IMG/VR virus record: IMGVR_UViG_3300010316_000013 | Coordinates: 1-46,417 of that record | Reading direction: 5' to 3' (one strand) | Source: a virus | DNA: 46,417 nt | Part shown: in pieces, positions 11,906-42,740 of the stretch | Layout: the number at the start of each line of letters is the position of its first letter | How positions within the stretch are numbered: position 1 is the stretch's first letter | The notes under the pieces: model-generated | Seen by the model: only the letters and a program-made list of their open reading frames with translations | Told to the model about the DNA's origin: nothing | Database searches by the model: none | Made by a program: the position numbers and the translations under genes

Positions 11906-14212
11906 ATGACTCAAGTCACCAAACGTAACGGAATTAAAGAATCATTAGACATCGAAAAACTACATAAGGTAGTTTTCTTTGCGTGTGAAGATATTACAGG
12001 TGTGAGTGCATCTGAAGTAGAAATTAAAAGTCAAATACAATTTTACAACGGTATGCAAACTAGTGAGATACAAGAGACACTGATCAAAGCCGCCGCAGAT
12101 CTTATATCAGAAGACACACCAAACTATCAATACGTTGGTGGCAGGTTAATTAACTATGCGCTGCGCAAGGAAGTATATGGCGGCTACGAACCATGTCACG
12201 TTAAAGAGCTAGTAGATCGCAACGTAGACAGAGGCTTTTATGATCCAGAACTGCTCGAGTACTACACTGACGATGACTGGGAAAAGATCAACAGCTTTAT
12301 TAAACACGAGCGTGACGAGAATCTAACATACGTTGCCATGGAGCAACTGCGTGGCAAGTATCTAGTACAAAACAGAGTAACCAAAGAGATCTTTGAAACT
12401 CCCCAGATGTGTTATATCCTTATTGCTGCTACACTGTTCCATAAGTACGAAGGCGACGAACGACTAAAGTGGATTAAAGACTATTACGATGCTATTAGCC
12501 TACACGACATTAGTTTACCCACTCCGATAATGGCAGGTGTACGTACTCCGCAGCGCCAGTTTAGTAGTTGCGTTCTTATTGAAACGGGCGACAGCCTCGA
12601 CAGCATTAATGCTACTGCCGCCAGCATTGTAAAGTATGTAAGTCAGAAAGCAGGCATTGGCATTGGTGGCGGAGCAATTAGAGCAATTGGTTCCCCTATC
12701 AGGAAAGGTGATGCATTCCATACAGGAGTTGTTCCCTTTTTTAAGCACTTCCAATCAGCAACACGAAGCTGCTCACAAGGCGGCGTGCGCAACGGCGCAG
12801 CAACAATATACTATCCCATATGGCATTTAGAAGCAGAAGAATTGCTTGTTCTCAAAAACAACAAAGGCACAGAAGACAACCGTGTTCGTCATATGGACTA
12901 TGGTGTACAGTTTAACAAGCTAATGTACGAAAGGCTTATCCAGGGCGGCAACATTACATTGTTCTCGCCCAGCGATGTTCCTGGACTACACGATGCGTTC
13001 TTTGCTGATCAAGATCTGTTCCGTGAGCTTTATGAAAAGGCAGAGCGCAGTACAAAGATTAGAAAGAAAACTATTAAAGCACTTGACTTGTTTCTTGCAT
13101 TTATGGAAGAGCGTAAAAACACAGGTCGCATCTATCTACAAAACGTAGACAACGCTAACGAGCATGGAAGCTTTATTCCTTCACTTGCGCCGATCCGCCA
13201 AAGTAACTTGTGTGCAGAGGTCGACTTGCCAACTAAGCCACTCAGCGATATCAACGATCCAGATGGTGAGATCAGTCTGTGTACACTAAGCGCAACAAAC
13301 TGGGGTAACATTAAGACACCCGCAGACTTTGAACGAGTGTGCAGACTAGCTGTACGCGGCCTAGACGCGCTGTTAAGCTACCAGAACTATCCTATCCTGG
13401 CAGCACAGTTGAGCACAGAGAAGCGTCGTCCTTTAGGCGTTGGCATTATCAACTTTGCTTACTGGATGGCAAAGAACGGATTCACATATCAAAACGTAAC
13501 ACCAGAAGCACTTGCTAAGATCGACGAGTGGACAGAAGCGTGGAGTTACTATCTTATCAAAGCAAGCGCAGACCTAGCAGCAGAGCAGGGCGCGCCGAGT
13601 GGTAATATGGAAACAAAGTACGGACACGGTATTACGCCAAACCAAACCTACAAGAAGGACCTAGACGAACTAGTGCCGCACGTTGAGCGCATGGATTGGG
13701 ACGGACTACGAGCGCAGCTAAAACGCACAGGCATCCGTAACTCAACACTAATGGCACTTATGCCAAGTGAAACATCTGCACAGGTAGCAAACGCAACCAA
13801 CGGCATTGAGCCGCCAAGAGCATTGATTAGCATTAAGCAAAGCAAACACGGCGTACTAACGCAGGTTGTACCGGAGTACAAGAAGCTAAAGAACAAGTAC
13901 GACCTACTGTGGACGCAGAAGTCTCCGGAAGGTTACCTTAAGATTATGGCCGTGCTTCAGAAGTACATTGACCAAGGTATTAGTGTTAACACCAGCTACA
14001 ACCCAATCTTCTTTGAAGATGAAAAGATTCCGATGAGCGTGATGCTTCAGCACTTGTTGATGTTTTACAAGTATGGCGGCAAGCAACTGTACTACTTTAA
14101 CACCAATGACGGACAAGGTGAAGTTGATGTCAACTCAATCATAGCAGCACAAGAAGCACCATTAGACGACTCAAATATCGACGACCAAGATTGTGAATCG
14201 TGTTCAATCTAA
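11906..14212 (+). CDS. nrdA: Ribonucleotide reductase class Ia, alpha subunit
   Basis: The 768-residue enzyme reduces ribonucleoside diphosphates to deoxy forms. An ATP-cone-like N-terminus (VTKRNGIKESLDIEKLHKV) is present. Catalytic residues are intact: Cys222 (FSSCVLI) and Cys459 (SLCTLS) as the redox pair, Asn434-Cys436-Glu438 (NLCAE) as the active site, and a C-terminal Cys763/Cys766 shuttle pair (DCESCSI). It partners with nrdB and the glutaredoxin downstream. The ribosome site AAGGATG lies about 12 bases before the ATG, so initiation looks modest. Confidence 0.98.
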   Translation: MTQVTKRNGIKESLDIEKLHKVVFFACEDITGVSASEVEIKSQIQFYNGMQTSEIQETLIKAAADLISEDTPNYQYVGGRLINYALRKEVYGGYEPCHVKELVDRNVDRGFYDPELLEYYTDDDWEKINSFIKHERDENLTYVAMEQLRGKYLVQNRVTKEIFETPQMCYILIAATLFHKYEGDERLKWIKDYYDAISLHDISLPTPIMAGVRTPQRQFSSCVLIETGDSLDSINATAASIVKYVSQKAGIGIGGGAIRAIGSPIRKGDAFHTGVVPFFKHFQSATRSCSQGGVRNGAATIYYPIWHLEAEELLVLKNNKGTEDNRVRHMDYGVQFNKLMYERLIQGGNITLFSPSDVPGLHDAFFADQDLFRELYEKAERSTKIRKKTIKALDLFLAFMEERKNTGRIYLQNVDNANEHGSFIPSLAPIRQSNLCAEVDLPTKPLSDINDPDGEISLCTLSATNWGNIKTPADFERVCRLAVRGLDALLSYQNYPILAAQLSTEKRRPLGVGIINFAYWMAKNGFTYQNVTPEALAKIDEWTEAWSYYLIKASADLAAEQGAPSGNMETKYGHGITPNQTYKKDLDELVPHVERMDWDGLRAQLKRTGIRNSTLMALMPSETSAQVANATNGIEPPRALISIKQSKHGVLTQVVPEYKKLKNKYDLLWTQKSPEGYLKIMAVLQKYIDQGISVNTSYNPIFFEDEKIPMSVMLQHLLMFYKYGGKQLYYFNTNDGQGEVDVNSIIAAQEAPLDDSNIDDQDCESCSI

Positions 14213-14317: not shown

Positions 14318-14914
14318 ATGTTTGTTTATATGTGGACTAATTTAGTTAATGATAAAAAGTATATAGGAAGACATGCTGGAAAACAGACGAGCACTTATAA
14401 AGGTTCAGGAAAGTATTTTCGACGTGCTTTAAATAAATTTGGAGAAGAGAACTTTAAAAGAGAAATATTAAAAGAATGCAAGGATTTAACTGAATGTATT
14501 AAATGGGAACAATATTATTTAGATTTTTATAATGCTTCTAAAAACATTAATTTTTATAATATTTCTCCTAGCGCACATGGCGGACATCATGGTGCAGACT
14601 ATAACGGAGAAAAAAATCCAATGTGGGGTCGAAAACATCCTAACCATGTTCCCCACTATGGAAAAGATAACGGAATGCACGGAGTTAGAAGAAAGCTTTC
14701 TGAAAATCCAAATGCTAAAAAGGTTAAACTAATTAATCCTAGTGGTAAAGAATATTACTTTGATAGTATGTTAGAAGCTTGTATTTCTCTTACAGGAAGT
14801 GAAAAAGAATATGGAAAAATGAAACATTTATTCCATAAAACGAAAGAAAATAAATCTTTAAGAAAAGATGCTAGATTTTATAATTGGAAAGGATATTACA
14901 CCAATGAGCAATAG
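14318..14914 (+). CDS. GIY-YIG homing endonuclease
   Basis: The 198-residue protein has VYM (3-5) and YIG (15-17), a conserved Glu in ECIKWEQYYLD, and NUMOD3-like segments (GEKNPMWGRKHP, GKDNGMHG). The C-terminal part (IFYF-type helices) probably binds the target. Codon use is more AT-rich than nrdA and nrdB, a sign of independent origin. Its last 11 bases overlap the nrdB start, and an AAAGGA in its codons serves as the nrdB ribosome site. Confidence 0.9.
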   Translation: MFVYMWTNLVNDKKYIGRHAGKQTSTYKGSGKYFRRALNKFGEENFKREILKECKDLTECIKWEQYYLDFYNASKNINFYNISPSAHGGHHGADYNGEKNPMWGRKHPNHVPHYGKDNGMHGVRRKLSENPNAKKVKLINPSGKEYYFDSMLEACISLTGSEKEYGKMKHLFHKTKENKSLRKDARFYNWKGYYTNEQ

Positions 14915-16040
14915 CAGTGTATTTGACACGAGTAACAGAGCAAACCACACGGAAGTAAAGGCTTTCCTGGACCCAAGTGGTGGTCCTACAATACAGAGAT
15001 ACGACACTATGAAATATCCTAGTATTGACAAATTTACTGACAAGCAGTTGGGGTTTTTTTGGTTACCACAAGAAGTTGATATCTATCAAGATGCTAAAGA
15101 CTTCAAAGCACTTACAGAACACGAACGTCATATCTTTACTTCGAACCTAAAGAGACAGATCCTGCTCGACAGTGTACAAGGCCGTGCACCAGTAGAAGCA
15201 TTTGCTCCTATTGTATCGCTGCCTGAGTTAGAGAACTGGATTCAAACTTGGACGTTTAGTGAGACTATTCACAGCCGCAGCTATACACACATCATTCGCA
15301 ACGTGTATTCAAACCCAAGCAAGATCTTTGACGGCTTAATGGACATCAAAGAGATTGTGGAATGTGCCGAAGACATCTCCAAGTACTACGATGACTTGAT
15401 TGAAATGTCAATGTGGTACAATCTGCTAGGTGTAGGTACACACACTGTTAACGGTAAAGAAGTTGTTGTTGACTTGTATGAGCTAAAGAAGCTGCTATAC
15501 CTGACACTTATGAGCGTTAATATCCTCGAAGGCGTGCGGTTCTATGTTAGCTTTGCGTGTAGCTGGGCGTTTGCTGAACTAAAGAAGATGGAAGGCAATG
15601 CTAAGATCATTAAGTTTATCGCGCGTGACGAAAATCTACACTTGGGTAGCACACAGTTGATGCTTGGGATCCTACAAAAAGACGACCCAGACTTTGTTAA
15701 GATTGTAGAAGAAACCAAGGACGAGTGTATACAAATGTTTGTAGACGCAGTTGATCAAGAGAAAGAATGGGCAGAGTACCTGTTTAAAGACGGTTCTATG
15801 ATCGGACTTAACACTCACTTACTAAGCGAGTACATTGAATGGATCTGTACACGTCGAATGGAAAAGGTAAAGCTACCTAGCCCGTACAACGTAAAGCATA
15901 ATCCGCTACCTTGGACACAGAAATGGATCTCAGGATCAGACGTGCAAGTAGCCCCTCAGCAAACGCAGATAAGTTCATACATCACAGGCGGCAGCAAGCA
16001 AGATGTCGACGGCGATACCTTTAAAGGAATGAGTCTTTAA
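14904..16040 (+). CDS. nrdB: Ribonucleotide reductase class Ia, beta subunit
   Basis: The 378-residue subunit houses the diiron-tyrosyl radical cofactor. Ligands and radical are in place: Asp89 (LLDSVQGR), Glu120 and His123 (SETIHS), Tyr127 (RSYTH), then Glu in NILEGVRFY and Glu/His in ARDENLHL. I chose ATG 14904 over an upstream in-frame ATG inside the GIY-YIG gene because it has AAAGGA upstream and matches the family start. Both ends are flanked by GIY-YIG genes, and its final 56 bases are repeated at 17185-17240. Confidence 0.97.
   Translation: MSNSSVFDTSNRANHTEVKAFLDPSGGPTIQRYDTMKYPSIDKFTDKQLGFFWLPQEVDIYQDAKDFKALTEHERHIFTSNLKRQILLDSVQGRAPVEAFAPIVSLPELENWIQTWTFSETIHSRSYTHIIRNVYSNPSKIFDGLMDIKEIVECAEDISKYYDDLIEMSMWYNLLGVGTHTVNGKEVVVDLYELKKLLYLTLMSVNILEGVRFYVSFACSWAFAELKKMEGNAKIIKFIARDENLHLGSTQLMLGILQKDDPDFVKIVEETKDECIQMFVDAVDQEKEWAEYLFKDGSMIGLNTHLLSEYIEWICTRRMEKVKLPSPYNVKHNPLPWTQKWISGSDVQVAPQQTQISSYITGGSKQDVDGDTFKGMSL
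15978..16033 (+). repeat. 56-bp direct repeat, copy 1 (end of nrdB)
   Basis: The last codons of nrdB, from TACATCACAGGCGGCAGC to GGAATGAG, are identical base for base to 17185-17240 on the far side of the GIY-YIG gene. Confidence 0.95.
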
Positions 16041-20505: not shown

Positions 20506-20534
20506 TTGACAAGCACTTCTAAAGAGTGTATAAA
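20506..20534 (+). promoter_or_regulatory. Promoter of the tmRNA gene
   Basis: TTGACA (20506-20511), 17 bases, TATAAA (20529-20534). The transcript would begin a few bases before the first tmRNA hairpin at 20547. Confidence 0.88.
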
Positions 20535-20540
20535 TATACT

Positions 20541-20960
20541 TGCAACGTTGAAGCAATTCAACAACATATTCTGGACCGGGGGGCGGTACCCCGATCGTCC
20601 ACCACAAGCACATAATGTGTGTTTTTGATGGGCGATAAATAGGATCGACAGGTGTGTGAGGAAAGTGGAGTTGTCCCGATCTAAGCTGGGTAACGCGAAG
20701 AACATACTAACTGCAAACGTAAATGCAAAGCCAGAGATGGCACTAGCAGCGTAAGCTGCGTGGGCTTACAGACTGCCTAGAAACAGAAAATCTGCTCCGA
20801 GTATGGGTTCCACTCGTTTACTACAAAAAACGGGCCCACTTACAGACGGAAAAAAGGCACAACATAGTTTTACTGGCTGAGTTTATGGTCTTGTGCTATA
20901 CAATCTTTTAGTACCGGCGGACTACGAATAGTGGGATACAAAACGCACCACTCTGAAAAT
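20541..20960 (+). ncRNA. ssrA: Circularly permuted two-piece tmRNA
   Basis: The acceptor piece comes first: a GNRA hairpin (20547-20562), a T arm (CGGGG, 7-base loop, CCCCG; 20577-20593) and ATCGTCC-A-CCA (20594-20604). After a 25-base spacer the coding piece begins GGGCGAT (20630-20636), which pairs with ATCGTCC to form the 7-bp acceptor stem, followed by the tmRNA-like AGGATCGACAGG. The tag frame (20713-20754) reads ANVNAKPEMALAA and stops at TAA, ending in the canonical ALAA degradation signal. The T loop (GGCGGTA) is not the tRNA consensus. Both ends are approximate. Permuted tmRNA is normal in alphaproteobacteria and some cyanobacteria, but unusual in a phage. Confidence 0.93.
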
Positions 20961-25024: not shown

Positions 25025-25423
25025 ATGAACAAAATTAATCTAATAACCCCACCTGACATATTGCGCACTGATGCGTTAACTTGGTTGTTTATATATCCGC
25101 GCAAAGATATTCAGAAACAACTTCAGGACGATATACTTGCTAACTACGACGGTACAATGAATCTTTACTATTATGACCAACCTAACTACAACAAAGATGA
25201 TGTTGAATGGCTGTTAAACGTATTTGAACTTGCTGAAGTTGTAGTAATTGATGTTGACAACTGTGAACCCTATATTATAGACCTAATGTCTTATTTAATT
25301 TCAAAATCAAAGACTTATTGGTTGACAATGAGGGATGAATCGTTGTATACTCATATCAGTAGCAATAGAATATACGATTTAAGCTTTTTAAATACAGGAG
25401 ATACAATTGAGAAAGCAATATGA
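25025..25423 (+). CDS. Conserved T4-like phage protein, unknown
   Basis: The 132-residue protein contains a Rossmann-like strand ([18 protein letters not shown]), and its spacing suggests a small alpha/beta fold. It overlaps the bS21 gene by 17 bases. No activity motif recognised. Confidence 0.75.
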
Positions 25424-25637
25424 TAGAGACTCTGGTCCTCGTGGCCTTGTAGTAGAAGTGAATCATGGAGACTTCGGTCGCGCCCTTCGCAAGTTTAAGA
25501 AGAAGGTGCAAGACGACGGCATCCTCCAAGAGATGCGTAGCAAAGAATTCTACGAAAAACCAAGTGCTATACGCAAGCGCGCCAAAGCAGCAGCTCGTGC
25601 GCGCCACCTAAAGGCCCGTGCAAAGGCAGAAGACTGA
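25407..25637 (+). CDS. rpsU: Ribosomal protein bS21
   Basis: The 76-residue protein has the bS21 core ([19 protein letters not shown] ... [19 protein letters not shown]) and the Arg/Lys-rich C-terminus. bS21 sits at the anti-Shine-Dalgarno site of the 30S subunit and affects initiation, so a phage copy could retune host ribosomes. The start is a TTG 7 bases after GGAGA, inside the end of the previous gene. Phage bS21 genes are known in marine phages including pelagiphages. Confidence 0.95.
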
Positions 25638-25649
25638 TCAACAAACTAC

Positions 25650-25670
25650 AGGAGGGTGCAATGCCCTCCT
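25650..25670 (+). promoter_or_regulatory. Hairpin after rpsU
   Basis: AGGAGGG pairs with CCCTCCT around a short loop. There is no T tract, so it is more likely an mRNA processing or stability element than a terminator. Confidence 0.5.
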
Positions 25671-25692
25671 ACACATAAAAAAGGATTAGATA

Positions 25693-26001
25693 ATGTCAAC
25701 GCAGCTTGATGTAGTAATTGACGAGAAAATTAAGCAAATTAATCACTTACCTAGCAAGTATAACGTGGTAATGTTAAACGACGACAAAACTCCAATTGAC
25801 TGGGTTATTTCAGTACTGACTGAGATCTTTAAACACAGTGACGCAACAGCAGAGTCTTTGACTATGGATATTCATAACAAAGGATCAGCAGTAGTCGGCA
25901 CCTATTCGTACGAGATCGCAGAGCAGAAGGCACTTGAAACTATTAATCTAAGTCGCAGCAATGGCTTTCCTTTACAAGTAAAGGTAGACGAAGAGAAATG
26001 A
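25693..26001 (+). CDS. clpS: ClpS adaptor (N-degron recognition)
   Basis: The 102-residue protein has a flexible N-terminus, then YNVVMLNDDKTPIDWVISVL with Asn29, Asp30 and Asp31 in the N-degron pocket, IHNKGSAVVGTYSYEIAE with the conserved His61, and NGFPLQVKVDEE at the end. It would deliver substrates to host ClpA. It shares an ATGA overlap with the heme oxygenase gene, so they are co-translated. Confidence 0.93.
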   Translation: MSTQLDVVIDEKIKQINHLPSKYNVVMLNDDKTPIDWVISVLTEIFKHSDATAESLTMDIHNKGSAVVGTYSYEIAEQKALETINLSRSNGFPLQVKVDEEK

Positions 26002-26525
26002 ATTTAAAAGAGCTTACCTGGGAACATCACAAGAACGCTGAACGACAAGCATTTGTAAAAGAGCTGCTAGGTGGGAACATAACTAATAACCGTTACGCTA
26101 CCTTTCTCTTTAACAGTCACCCACAGTACAACATACTTGAACAATTTGCTATGCTTCACGATTTGATAGACTTTAGGCGAGCACCTGCCATCCATGAAGA
26201 CTATTTAGAACTTTGGGACGAACATCCAAATCAGCCCCCGACTCTTCCGGTAGTAAAAGAGTATACAGATCATATTGCATCAATCAAAGATGATCCTAAC
26301 AAGCTAATGGCACATATCTACGTTCGTCATATGGGTGACTTGAGTGGCGGACAGATGATTGCAAAACGTGTACCTGGCAAGGGCAGACTATACCAGTTCG
26401 ACGAAGATGTTGATGTTTTAAAAGAAAGCATCAGAACACGTCTCGATGATTCTATGGCAGACGAAGCTAAGATCTGCTTTGACTTTGCCACTAAGCAGTT
26501 TCAACAAATGATGGATATTAAATGA
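25998..26525 (+). CDS. ho1: Heme oxygenase
   Basis: The 175-residue protein is short for the family (about 210-240) but has the proximal heme His in EHHKNAE (His11) and the distal helix motif GDLSGGQ (around residue 112-118). It opens heme to biliverdin IX-alpha, releasing iron and CO. It is coupled to clpS upstream and to a bilin reductase downstream by ATGA overlaps, so biliverdin is probably its product for the next enzyme. Confidence 0.93.
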   Translation: MNLKELTWEHHKNAERQAFVKELLGGNITNNRYATFLFNSHPQYNILEQFAMLHDLIDFRRAPAIHEDYLELWDEHPNQPPTLPVVKEYTDHIASIKDDPNKLMAHIYVRHMGDLSGGQMIAKRVPGKGRLYQFDEDVDVLKESIRTRLDDSMADEAKICFDFATKQFQQMMDIK

Positions 26526-27211
26526 GCGAAGTCTGGGATATACTGATTGACTGTCAAACTCAAATAATTGATAAACTAGATGCTAGTTGCTTCGAGTATC
26601 ACGAATTTGAAATGGAAAAGTTTAACCAGCCCGATAACGGATGGGTTAACAGACTTTGGATGAGTGATAGTATACGAAGAGCTCACGTTGACGTAGTAGA
26701 TGCTAGAGCCAGTCGCGGACTTTGGATGATGCACGTATGCGTGTTTCCTAGGTTAAGCAGCGATGCTCCTATATACGGGTTTGATGTCATTGCTGGCAAG
26801 AACAAGATGACAGGGGCCTTTTTAGACTTCTCTCCTACAGTACACGACACGCATCCTATGATGATTGAATTTGAAGATATGGTACAAGCGTTTGTACCTG
26901 CGAAGAAGCGCGAACTGCCTGAGTGGGCTACTAACATATTTTCAAAGAATATGATAGCAGCAGGTAATGTTGGCAGCACTGAAACTAATGATATTGTTCA
27001 ACTTGCGTTAGGCACATTGGATTATTACATTAACGACGTCAGTGATTATACAGGCAACGCAACAGAAGATTTAGTTAAAGCTAAACAAAATTGGTATTGT
27101 GAGAACCAAAAGCTAAACCCGCATACTCCTCGAGTAATGAAAAGCCTAGGCTTAGACGAAGCGGACGTTAACTTATTCTGTAAGGATATTCTCTTTCCTG
27201 AAATCTTATAA
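26522..27211 (+). CDS. Ferredoxin-dependent bilin reductase (PebS/PcyX-like)
   Basis: The 229-residue protein has the family core RLSSDAPIYGFDVIAGKNKMTGAF followed by LDFSP with the proton-donating Asp102, and a C-terminal LFCKDILFPEIL region. It is fused in operon with heme oxygenase, so it should reduce biliverdin with ferredoxin. Sequence alone does not separate phycoerythrobilin-forming PebS or PcyX from other members. PcyX is a phage type reported from marine metagenomes, which fits this context. Confidence 0.85.
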   Translation: MSEVWDILIDCQTQIIDKLDASCFEYHEFEMEKFNQPDNGWVNRLWMSDSIRRAHVDVVDARASRGLWMMHVCVFPRLSSDAPIYGFDVIAGKNKMTGAFLDFSPTVHDTHPMMIEFEDMVQAFVPAKKRELPEWATNIFSKNMIAAGNVGSTETNDIVQLALGTLDYYINDVSDYTGNATEDLVKAKQNWYCENQKLNPHTPRVMKSLGLDEADVNLFCKDILFPEIL

Positions 27212-27214
27212 ATA
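27207..27214 (+). promoter_or_regulatory. T4 late promoter, exact consensus
   Basis: TATAAATA lies 25 bases before the ATG at 27239. It overlaps the end of the bilin reductase gene. Confidence 0.65.
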
Positions 27215-42122: not shown

Positions 42123-42740
42123 ATGGCACTAATACCTTTTGTAGTAGAACAGACCTCATCTGGGGAACGCTCGTATGATATATTTTCAAGATTACTTCGA
42201 GATAGAATTATAATGTTAAACGGATCAATACATACTGGCATGTCGCATTCAATTGTAGCACAAATGTTGTTCCTTGAGTCAGAAGATCCTAACAAAGAAA
42301 TTAATCTTTATATTAACTCCGGCGGCGGCGAAGTAACAGCCGGAGTTGCGATCTACGACACTATGCAGTTCATCAAGCCTGACGTTAAAACAATTGTAAT
42401 GGGTCAAGCTTGTTCAATGGGCAGCTTCCTTGCTCAAGCAGGTGCAGCAGGAAAACGCTTTGTACTGCCTGAGTCACGTACAATGATTCACAGAGTTAGC
42501 AGCGGTACACGAGGTACAAGCGGTAGTGTACACGTACAAGAACTTGAGTTTGAAGACGCTCGTCGTGCGTTTGAGGAGTCAAAGAAGGTCAACAAGCGGC
42601 TGACCGAACTGTACGAGCGCCATAACACCGCAGGCAAGAAATACGACGAACTGTATGAAACTATGAAGTTTGATACGTTCCTAACAGCAGAGGAGGCAGT
42701 TGAGTATGGACTCGCAGACAAAGTCGTCACTAGCCGTTGA
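42123..42740 (+). CDS. clpP: ClpP-type serine protease
   Basis: The 205-residue protease has the catalytic Ser98 (QACSMGS), His123 (RTMIHRV) and Asp184 (MKFDTFL), with the substrate groove GGGEVTAG and the YINSGGG motif. It could assemble with host Clp ATPases or act alone. A longer loop than E. coli ClpP separates His and Asp. It is positioned among small genes. Together with clpS and a tmRNA, this phage controls several parts of Clp proteolysis. Confidence 0.93.

Follow-up and report, generated by a model that had tools for sequence, protein, structure and literature searches.

Introduction

A phage cassette joining a heme oxygenase gene (hemO) to the bilin reductase gene pcyX was reportedly described by Ledermann in 2016 and 2018. 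The hemO-pcyX pair and the 5-ALA synthase gene alaS were subsequently placed in marine and freshwater phages for which alphaproteobacterial hosts were proposed (Wegner 2024, PMC11480375), and that article calls the hemO and bilin-reductase genes of such phages 'still enigmatic'. That phages carry bilin genes although their hosts lack phycobilisomes, which a preliminary description of the DNA analysed here had taken to be unusual, was thus already published. The main text of the same article holds no words beginning with 'Clp' or 'Hsp'. Related work defines an AX lineage that unites phage PcyX with the PcyA of alphaproteobacteria, and reports that bilin-binding globins adjoin the reductases of heterotrophs (PMC10151467). 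Among the Clp proteins, ClpS of jumbo phages has been described as probably serving the ClpAP of the host as an adaptor (PMC7824862), and seven Clp-family proteins have been counted in phage Atu_ph07 (PMC6102473). We found no description of the gene order clpS-hemO-pcyX, or of bilin-binding tail repeats, in the accessible text of the open-access literature on phage bilin and Clp genes.

Here we describe a 46,417-base IMG/VR virus record (hereafter the window) in which these three genes stand in this order, and compare it with related viral loci and genomes.

The three-gene unit and its surroundings

The features discussed are collected in Table 1. The preliminary description had claimed ATGA overlaps between clpS, hemO and the reductase gene, and both junctions indeed overlap by four bases, with the open reading frames (ORFs) lying exactly where it had placed them. 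Its three gene identities held as well: the matches to the Pfam families ClpS, Heme_oxygenase and Fe_bilin_red (1e-19 for the last) all exceeded the curated cut-offs. A purine-rich stretch precedes the clpS start codon on inspection of the sequence. hemO and pcyX each start within the stop of the gene before, an arrangement suggestive of coupled translation.

Table 1. Positions of the features in the window and of the repeat-bearing tail proteins in related loci.
Feature	Position	Strand	Evidence or remark
Ribonucleotide reductase large subunit	11906..14212	+	phrog_84, 1035 bits
Ribonucleotide reductase small subunit, expected iron enzyme	14868..16040	+	phrog_86, 9.7e-140
Permuted alphaproteobacterial-type tmRNA	20511..20845	+	ARAGORN tmRNA*; RF01849 85.3 bits; RF04321 98.5 bits
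Conserved ORF of syntenic block	25025..25423	+	tblastn match in 60/82 loci
Ribosomal protein bS21 homologue, upstream neighbour	25407..25637	+	PF01165 2.4e-19
Stable hairpin between bS21 and clpS	25647..25673	.	fold z -3.9
clpS, N-degron adaptor, 102 aa	25693..26001	+	PF02617 1.5e-26
hemO, heme oxygenase, 175 aa	25998..26525	+	PF01126 2.5e-20
pcyX, ferredoxin-dependent bilin reductase, 229 aa	26522..27211	+	5OWG phmmer 6.2e-72; Foldseek best match 5OWG
TATAAATA octamer at pcyX stop	27207..27214	+	
clpP-like protease subunit, 205 aa, possible ClpS partner	42123..42740	+	PF00574 2.5e-63
Giant tail proteins with tandem ~163-residue CxRD repeats	L425 267-7697 (G005 211766-219197); L426-L445		

The hairpin upstream of clpS was terminator-like on the minus strand only in a terminator scan. 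By the T4 consensus, the TATAAATA octamer is late-promoter-like, and it was found at the same position relative to the pcyX stop in 11 of 58 distinct loci. Enrichment of such promoters in the window was considered and rejected, as four octamers against 3.85 expected are no more than chance. The window ClpP reached 247.6 bits against the clpP subfamily NF001368 (cut-off 249). No Hsp20 gene was detected anywhere in the window, including beside clpS, and alaS is absent from this 46-kb fragment.

The window heme oxygenase is of the HO-1 type, with the proximal His and the distal GDLSGG (GDxSGG) motif; the proximal His was present in 70/73 and 55/56 distinct heme oxygenases of two lineages. The pocket of the window ClpS retains N, D, D, T, P and H (the NDD motif and the His of the amino-binding site), with Ile at the gate Met and Thr at the Met62-equivalent. 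Thr at the latter position was seen in 58 of 68 distinct ClpS proteins with bilin genes and in 6 of 23 without. Given these two residues, the specificity of ClpS may differ, and a shifted N-degron preference in ClpS of the window type is possible. The NDD motif is missing from three ClpS rows without bilin genes. As a separate observation made by eye, the loci L153-L155 encode very divergent ClpS-like proteins followed by a ferredoxin-NADP reductase-like protein.

Identity of the bilin reductase

Judged by sequence and modelled fold, the window reductase is PcyX. A phmmer search against the PDB ranked PcyX 5OWG (PcyX_EBK42635) far ahead of PcyA (2.1e-12), and the score against PF05996 was 71.5 bits (cut-off 31). 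When an AlphaFold model made from an alignment of 24 sequences (pLDDT 94.5) was searched with Foldseek, 5OWG came first (2.7e-17, 41% identity) and PcyA next; PebS ranked much lower. Of the 'PebS/PcyX-like' label in the preliminary description, the PcyX half therefore stands, 5OWG being the best match by both sequence and fold; the PebS half does not, since PebS was only a distant and much weaker fold match to the model.

The phylogenetic check proposed earlier placed the reductase with characterised PcyX and apart from PcyA. In the corrected tree of ferredoxin-dependent bilin reductases (FDBR), which included one PebS and left out P-RSM6 PebS, the reductase groups required the minimum possible number of changes and 5OWG fell among PcyX; in an earlier version of the tree, a branch with support 95/84 parted the PcyX rows from five phage PcyA. 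The Mosig-type PcyX proteins and 5OWG formed a single clade (100/100). The window PcyX sits on a long branch whose placement relative to the remaining PcyX is only weakly resolved.

The conserved catalytic Asp on which the earlier identification depended is also in place. The window PcyX keeps D57, H71 and D88, and the columns of PcyA His88 and Asp105 are conserved in the PcyX/PcyA alignment. At the column of PcyA Glu76, Asp occupies 51/51 PcyX rows and Glu 5/5 cyanophage PcyA rows; D57 of the window is this PcyX-specific Asp. It would equal the residue numbered Asp55 in published work if the 5OWG chain carries an 8-residue tag. According to PMC11480375, a phage enzyme without the PcyX-specific Asp55 produces PCB; with this Asp present here, phycoerythrobilin (PEB) is the predicted product.

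Conservation and composition of the cluster

Loci were collected with three kinds of anchor. The scan with the window PcyX kept 80 of 154 relatives, of which 11 were cut within 2 kb upstream and 69 were assessable. Upstream of PcyX, these 69 loci encoded ClpS in 67, heme oxygenase in 65 and Hsp20 in 63 cases. After removal of 21 duplicates, the counts for distinct PcyX proteins were 47/48, 46/48 and 45/48, respectively. The clpS link was thus borne out by the search for its gene order in other phages that had been proposed earlier, and it is real and conserved in the lineage of the window. The exact four-base overlap was seen between clpS and hemO in 33/80 distinct loci and between hemO and pcyX in 12/80. 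The scan with the PcyX of the pelagiphage Mosig kept 80 of 194 relatives (29 too short, 51 assessable). All 51 assessable Mosig-type loci encoded heme oxygenase; ClpS and Hsp20 were each found in 0/51.

The scan anchored on heme oxygenase kept 80 of 96 relatives. Both ClpS and PcyX were present in 63/80, PcyX without ClpS in 4/80, and ClpS with the downstream side cut in 1/80; neither was seen in 12/80 (nine with both sides assessable, three cut downstream). As two of the queries used for scanning favour loci with bilin genes, the proportions given do not represent frequencies. Loci departing from the common order included two with pcyX directly 3' of clpS and hemO missing (L002, L003) and two with a lone pcyX and neither clpS nor hemO (L057, L061). 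Separately, a stand-alone hemO, 68-73% identical to that of the window, was observed in L283, L287-L289, L291, L293, L294, L296 and L302, with no ClpS or PcyX within the flanks examined; in L287 and L296 it lies between two large ORFs, the downstream one tail-fibre-like. PcyX as a bacterial gene was considered and set aside: a scan of genome contigs returned only two short MAG contigs, L158 and L159, and since the genes of both run in the phage order Hsp20-ClpS-HO-PcyX, they are probably misbinned phage.

Adjacency differed between gene pairs, with hsp20-clpS neighbouring in 61/62 cases, clpS-hemO in 64/66, hemO-pcyX in 45/66 and bS21-hsp20 in 1/54. Genes for GMP reductase, GroES, GroEL or DnaK lie between bS21 and hsp20 in subsets of the loci. 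In the ClpS-anchored scans, Hsp20 was directly upstream of ClpS whether or not bilin genes followed; across the loci of all scans, this held for 112 of the 118 distinct ClpS assessed that have bilin genes and for 21 of the 28 that have none. The Rhizobiales phages Phosso and Atu_ph07 have the gene order hsp20-thymidine kinase-clpS; no bilin reductase was found in either, and the gene coupled to clpS in Phosso had no match to heme oxygenase or reductase. In the genome G004, about 100 kb separate clpS (79 kb) from hemO-pcyX (178 kb), so the two modules need not stand together. The reductase gene of G004 was considered as a second Clp link through a nearby ClpA and dismissed, several unrelated genes intervening.

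Presence of hsp20 beside clpS with or without bilin genes, the Rhizobiales gene order without a reductase, and the existence of hemO-pcyX away from clpS together alter how the clpS link is to be read. The link itself, as described earlier, stands; the single clpS-bilin unit is better taken as hsp20-clpS to which a hemO-pcyX pair has been joined. On a ClpS tree with 91 labelled rows, the bilin label changed twice, and on a larger quick tree of 118 rows five times, with the label scored on the clpS neighbourhood alone, so that G004 was entered as 'no bilin'; shuffled labels gave a mean of about 21 changes. So few changes against the shuffled value suggest that one or a few events brought hemO-pcyX to the hsp20-clpS unit.

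Wider genomes and probable host

The source of the window is a large marine virus of bacteria. Named relatives of its ribonucleotide reductase, ClpP and ClpS were mostly large phages among the matches listed. A panel of 15 records of up to 381,886 bases was searched family by family. ClpS was detected in 12/15 and ClpP in exactly these 12, the window and G001-G011 included. A ClpB_D2-small match was found in 6/13 records; one ORF of 740-760 residues from each of four of these six matched ClpA best (857-889 bits), below the NCBI equivalog cut-off of 993. The 5-ALA synthase was present in 7/15 records of a panel in which Phosso and Atu_ph07 replaced two short records. No Fer2 ferredoxin was found in 14/15 records, Mosig being its sole bearer.

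The alphaproteobacterial host, put forward earlier as probable, is backed at that strength by the permuted alpha-type tmRNA of the window; the alpha_tmRNA model matched 10/15 panel records, nine above the cut-off. A tmRNA can reflect an earlier host, as work on the phage Melnitz states (PMC9004378). SAR11 is a possible host, but the GC content of the window is 40.7% (lineage median 38%) versus a median of 31% in Mosig-type loci.

Repeats weakly resembling phycobiliproteins in giant tail proteins

The sole match to a phycobiliprotein family in the 15 records (PF00502, 26 bits) lies inside a 2477-residue ORF of G005 that carries nine C-x-R-D repeats. Searched in three pieces, this ORF scored 23.7, 19.4 and 12.5 bits against PF00502 (E of 5.2e-5, 0.0011 and 0.15), one of the three passing the cut-off of 22.2; the family was the top Pfam match for two pieces and second for the third. 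In related loci, neighbouring motifs were spaced by 158-168 residues in 72 of 112 intervals. This spacing equals the length of a phycobiliprotein subunit.

Repeat matches were found in all 11 large relatives (G001-G011) and weakly in P-SSM4, and none in the window fragment, Mosig, Phosso, Atu_ph07 or P-SSM2. In a phage collection, 333 records matched the repeat (272 Synechococcus, 52 Cyanophage, eight Prochlorococcus and one Marine). A profile of the nine repeats matched CpcA in the PDB at 4.1e-5, and 54 of the 60 matches listed were phycobiliproteins or derived from them; the other six were unrelated cytolysin chains matching a different stretch (best 5.5e-4). With a profile of 58 repeats, 21 of 27 matches were phycobiliproteins or derivatives of these (best 2.4e-4). 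The predicted repeat fold (pLDDT 87, pTM 0.66) retrieved a phycobiliprotein first in Foldseek, without significance (E 0.61). VIA returned phycobiliproteins in 49 of 50 rows, at Z 4.9-5.5 over residues ~44-127, about half of the domain, with rmsd mostly 2-3 across about 80 residues; these Z values are below the caution level of the tool and the model is helical. The resemblance appears to be real but partial, and would fit either a distant kinship or a commonplace arrangement of helices.

When the C, R and D columns were masked, C.RD still stood at the motif column in 160/161 IMG/VR repeats, found with a profile built from repeats originally chosen by this motif. It was kept in 3/5 repeats of two cyanophage loci. 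In S-CAM4 (L447 1-7645; 17535-25179), a gene for a CpeT-like chromophore lyase is followed by two tRNAs and then the repeat-bearing tail gene. A search for CpeT-like lyases over the extracted loci, a minor part of each genome, found them in S-CAM4 and the cyanophage locus L259 only, and in none of the bilin-phage loci.

Discussion

We consider it probable that the clpS-bilin link reflects co-expression: within a single phage lineage, a proteostasis unit would be expressed together with the genes for PEB synthesis. An obligate pathway is not favoured. The gene identities, order, conservation and separability of the modules can be read from the sequences themselves. The ancestral transcription unit would have been hsp20-clpS-hemO-pcyX, the trio of the window being the end of this conserved unit after loss of hsp20 beside clpS. 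On one or a few occasions the hsp20-clpS unit would have acquired the hemO-pcyX pair, which it then retained. HemO would convert heme to biliverdin with release of iron, and PcyX, presumably with electrons from host ferredoxin, would reduce biliverdin to PEB. ClpS would pass N-degron substrates to ClpAP, for which the phage supplies a putative ClpP and some sister phages a putative ClpA. The unit would be co-transcribed and expressed during host takeover.

Several points pull against co-expression. Conservation across many divergent loci could mean functional coupling instead, and ferredoxin is missing from every panel record except that of Mosig. A strict two-enzyme pathway, for its part, does not predict the clpS-pcyX loci without hemO (L002/L003) or the lone pcyX genes (L057/L061). 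Coupling is the essence of a reading in which Hsp20 and ClpS-ClpAP dismantle host proteins, hemoproteins included, HemO recovers the iron, and PcyX drains biliverdin and so sustains HemO turnover. It would explain all four genes as one unit and agrees with phage ClpP in 12/12 ClpS records, with the ribonucleotide reductase small subunit encoded in the window and with iron supply, which PMC11480375 raises as a purpose. We nevertheless hold such heme disposal to be rather unlikely, because hemO-pcyX lies ~100 kb from clpS in G004, ClpS is missing from all assessable Mosig-type loci, and the 5-ALA synthase in 7/15 records points to more heme and not to salvage alone.

The purpose of the bilin itself admits further answers. 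It might be a chromophore of the phage's own virion, with PEB on the phycobiliprotein-like CxRD repeats of the giant tail proteins. The distribution of the repeats among the large relatives and their absence from Mosig, Phosso, Atu_ph07 and P-SSM2, the predominance of phycobiliproteins in the profile and VIA matches, the persistence of C.RD under masking and the lyase gene upstream of the S-CAM4 tail gene all fit; the low Z values, the Foldseek E, the half-domain coverage, the cytolysin matches, the loss of C.RD from two of five cyanophage repeats and the window fragment without repeats do not. Moreover, 333 phage records, almost all of them from cyanophages, carry the repeats, against 16 with PcyX-like tblastn matches. 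We regard the virion chromophore as a distinctly unlikely reading, and hold out slightly less hope for its fuller form, in which the phages make PEB for their own virions, the CxRD cysteine carries the bilin covalently, and marine cyanophages do likewise, using bilin from the host or the phage together with lyases that the phage encodes. If the repeats bind bilin, the phage would colour its own tail, and it would be clear why phages whose hosts lack phycobilisomes have genes for bilin synthesis; this lead narrows the question of purpose to whether virions of the lineage or of repeat-bearing cyanophages are bilin-positive. PEB or biliverdin for a host or phage photoreceptor or another bilin-binding protein is very improbable in our estimate: in E. 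coli, the PcyA of a freshwater phage does provide phytochrome with a functional chromophore (PMC11480375), but PF00502 matched nothing in the 15 records except the G005 tail ORF.

Co-expression remains the account that we prefer, and it is best placed by comparison with known systems. With the cassette of Mosig (EXVC030M) and Wegner the window lineage shares hemO adjoining a pcyX that encodes the PcyX-specific Asp, a separately located 5-ALA synthase gene in 7/15 records, and proposed alphaproteobacterial hosts. It differs in that the pair is joined downstream of hsp20-clpS, with ClpP and often ClpA, in a PcyX 51% identical to that of Mosig, in GC content (41% in the window and 38% in the lineage versus 31%), and in ferredoxin, found only in Mosig. 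The jumbo phages Atu_ph07 and Phosso likewise have hsp20 near clpS and a ClpP, but thymidine kinase separates the two genes and there is no bilin reductase. The pcyA and pebS cassettes of cyanophages share a phage heme-to-bilin pathway; their PcyA is only 24-29% identical to the window PcyX, PebS is a distant fold match, and the hosts are cyanobacterial. Synteny thus sorts the constant pairs, hemO-pcyX and hsp20-clpS, from their variable linkage, and adds a second, large-phage lineage in which the hemO-pcyX pair is tied to chaperone and protease genes. The enzyme pair is known in viruses, and its stable linkage to the hsp20/clpS stress-protein genes is new: compared with the published cassette, the enzymes are the same, the genomic setting is new and the regulatory setting probably so.
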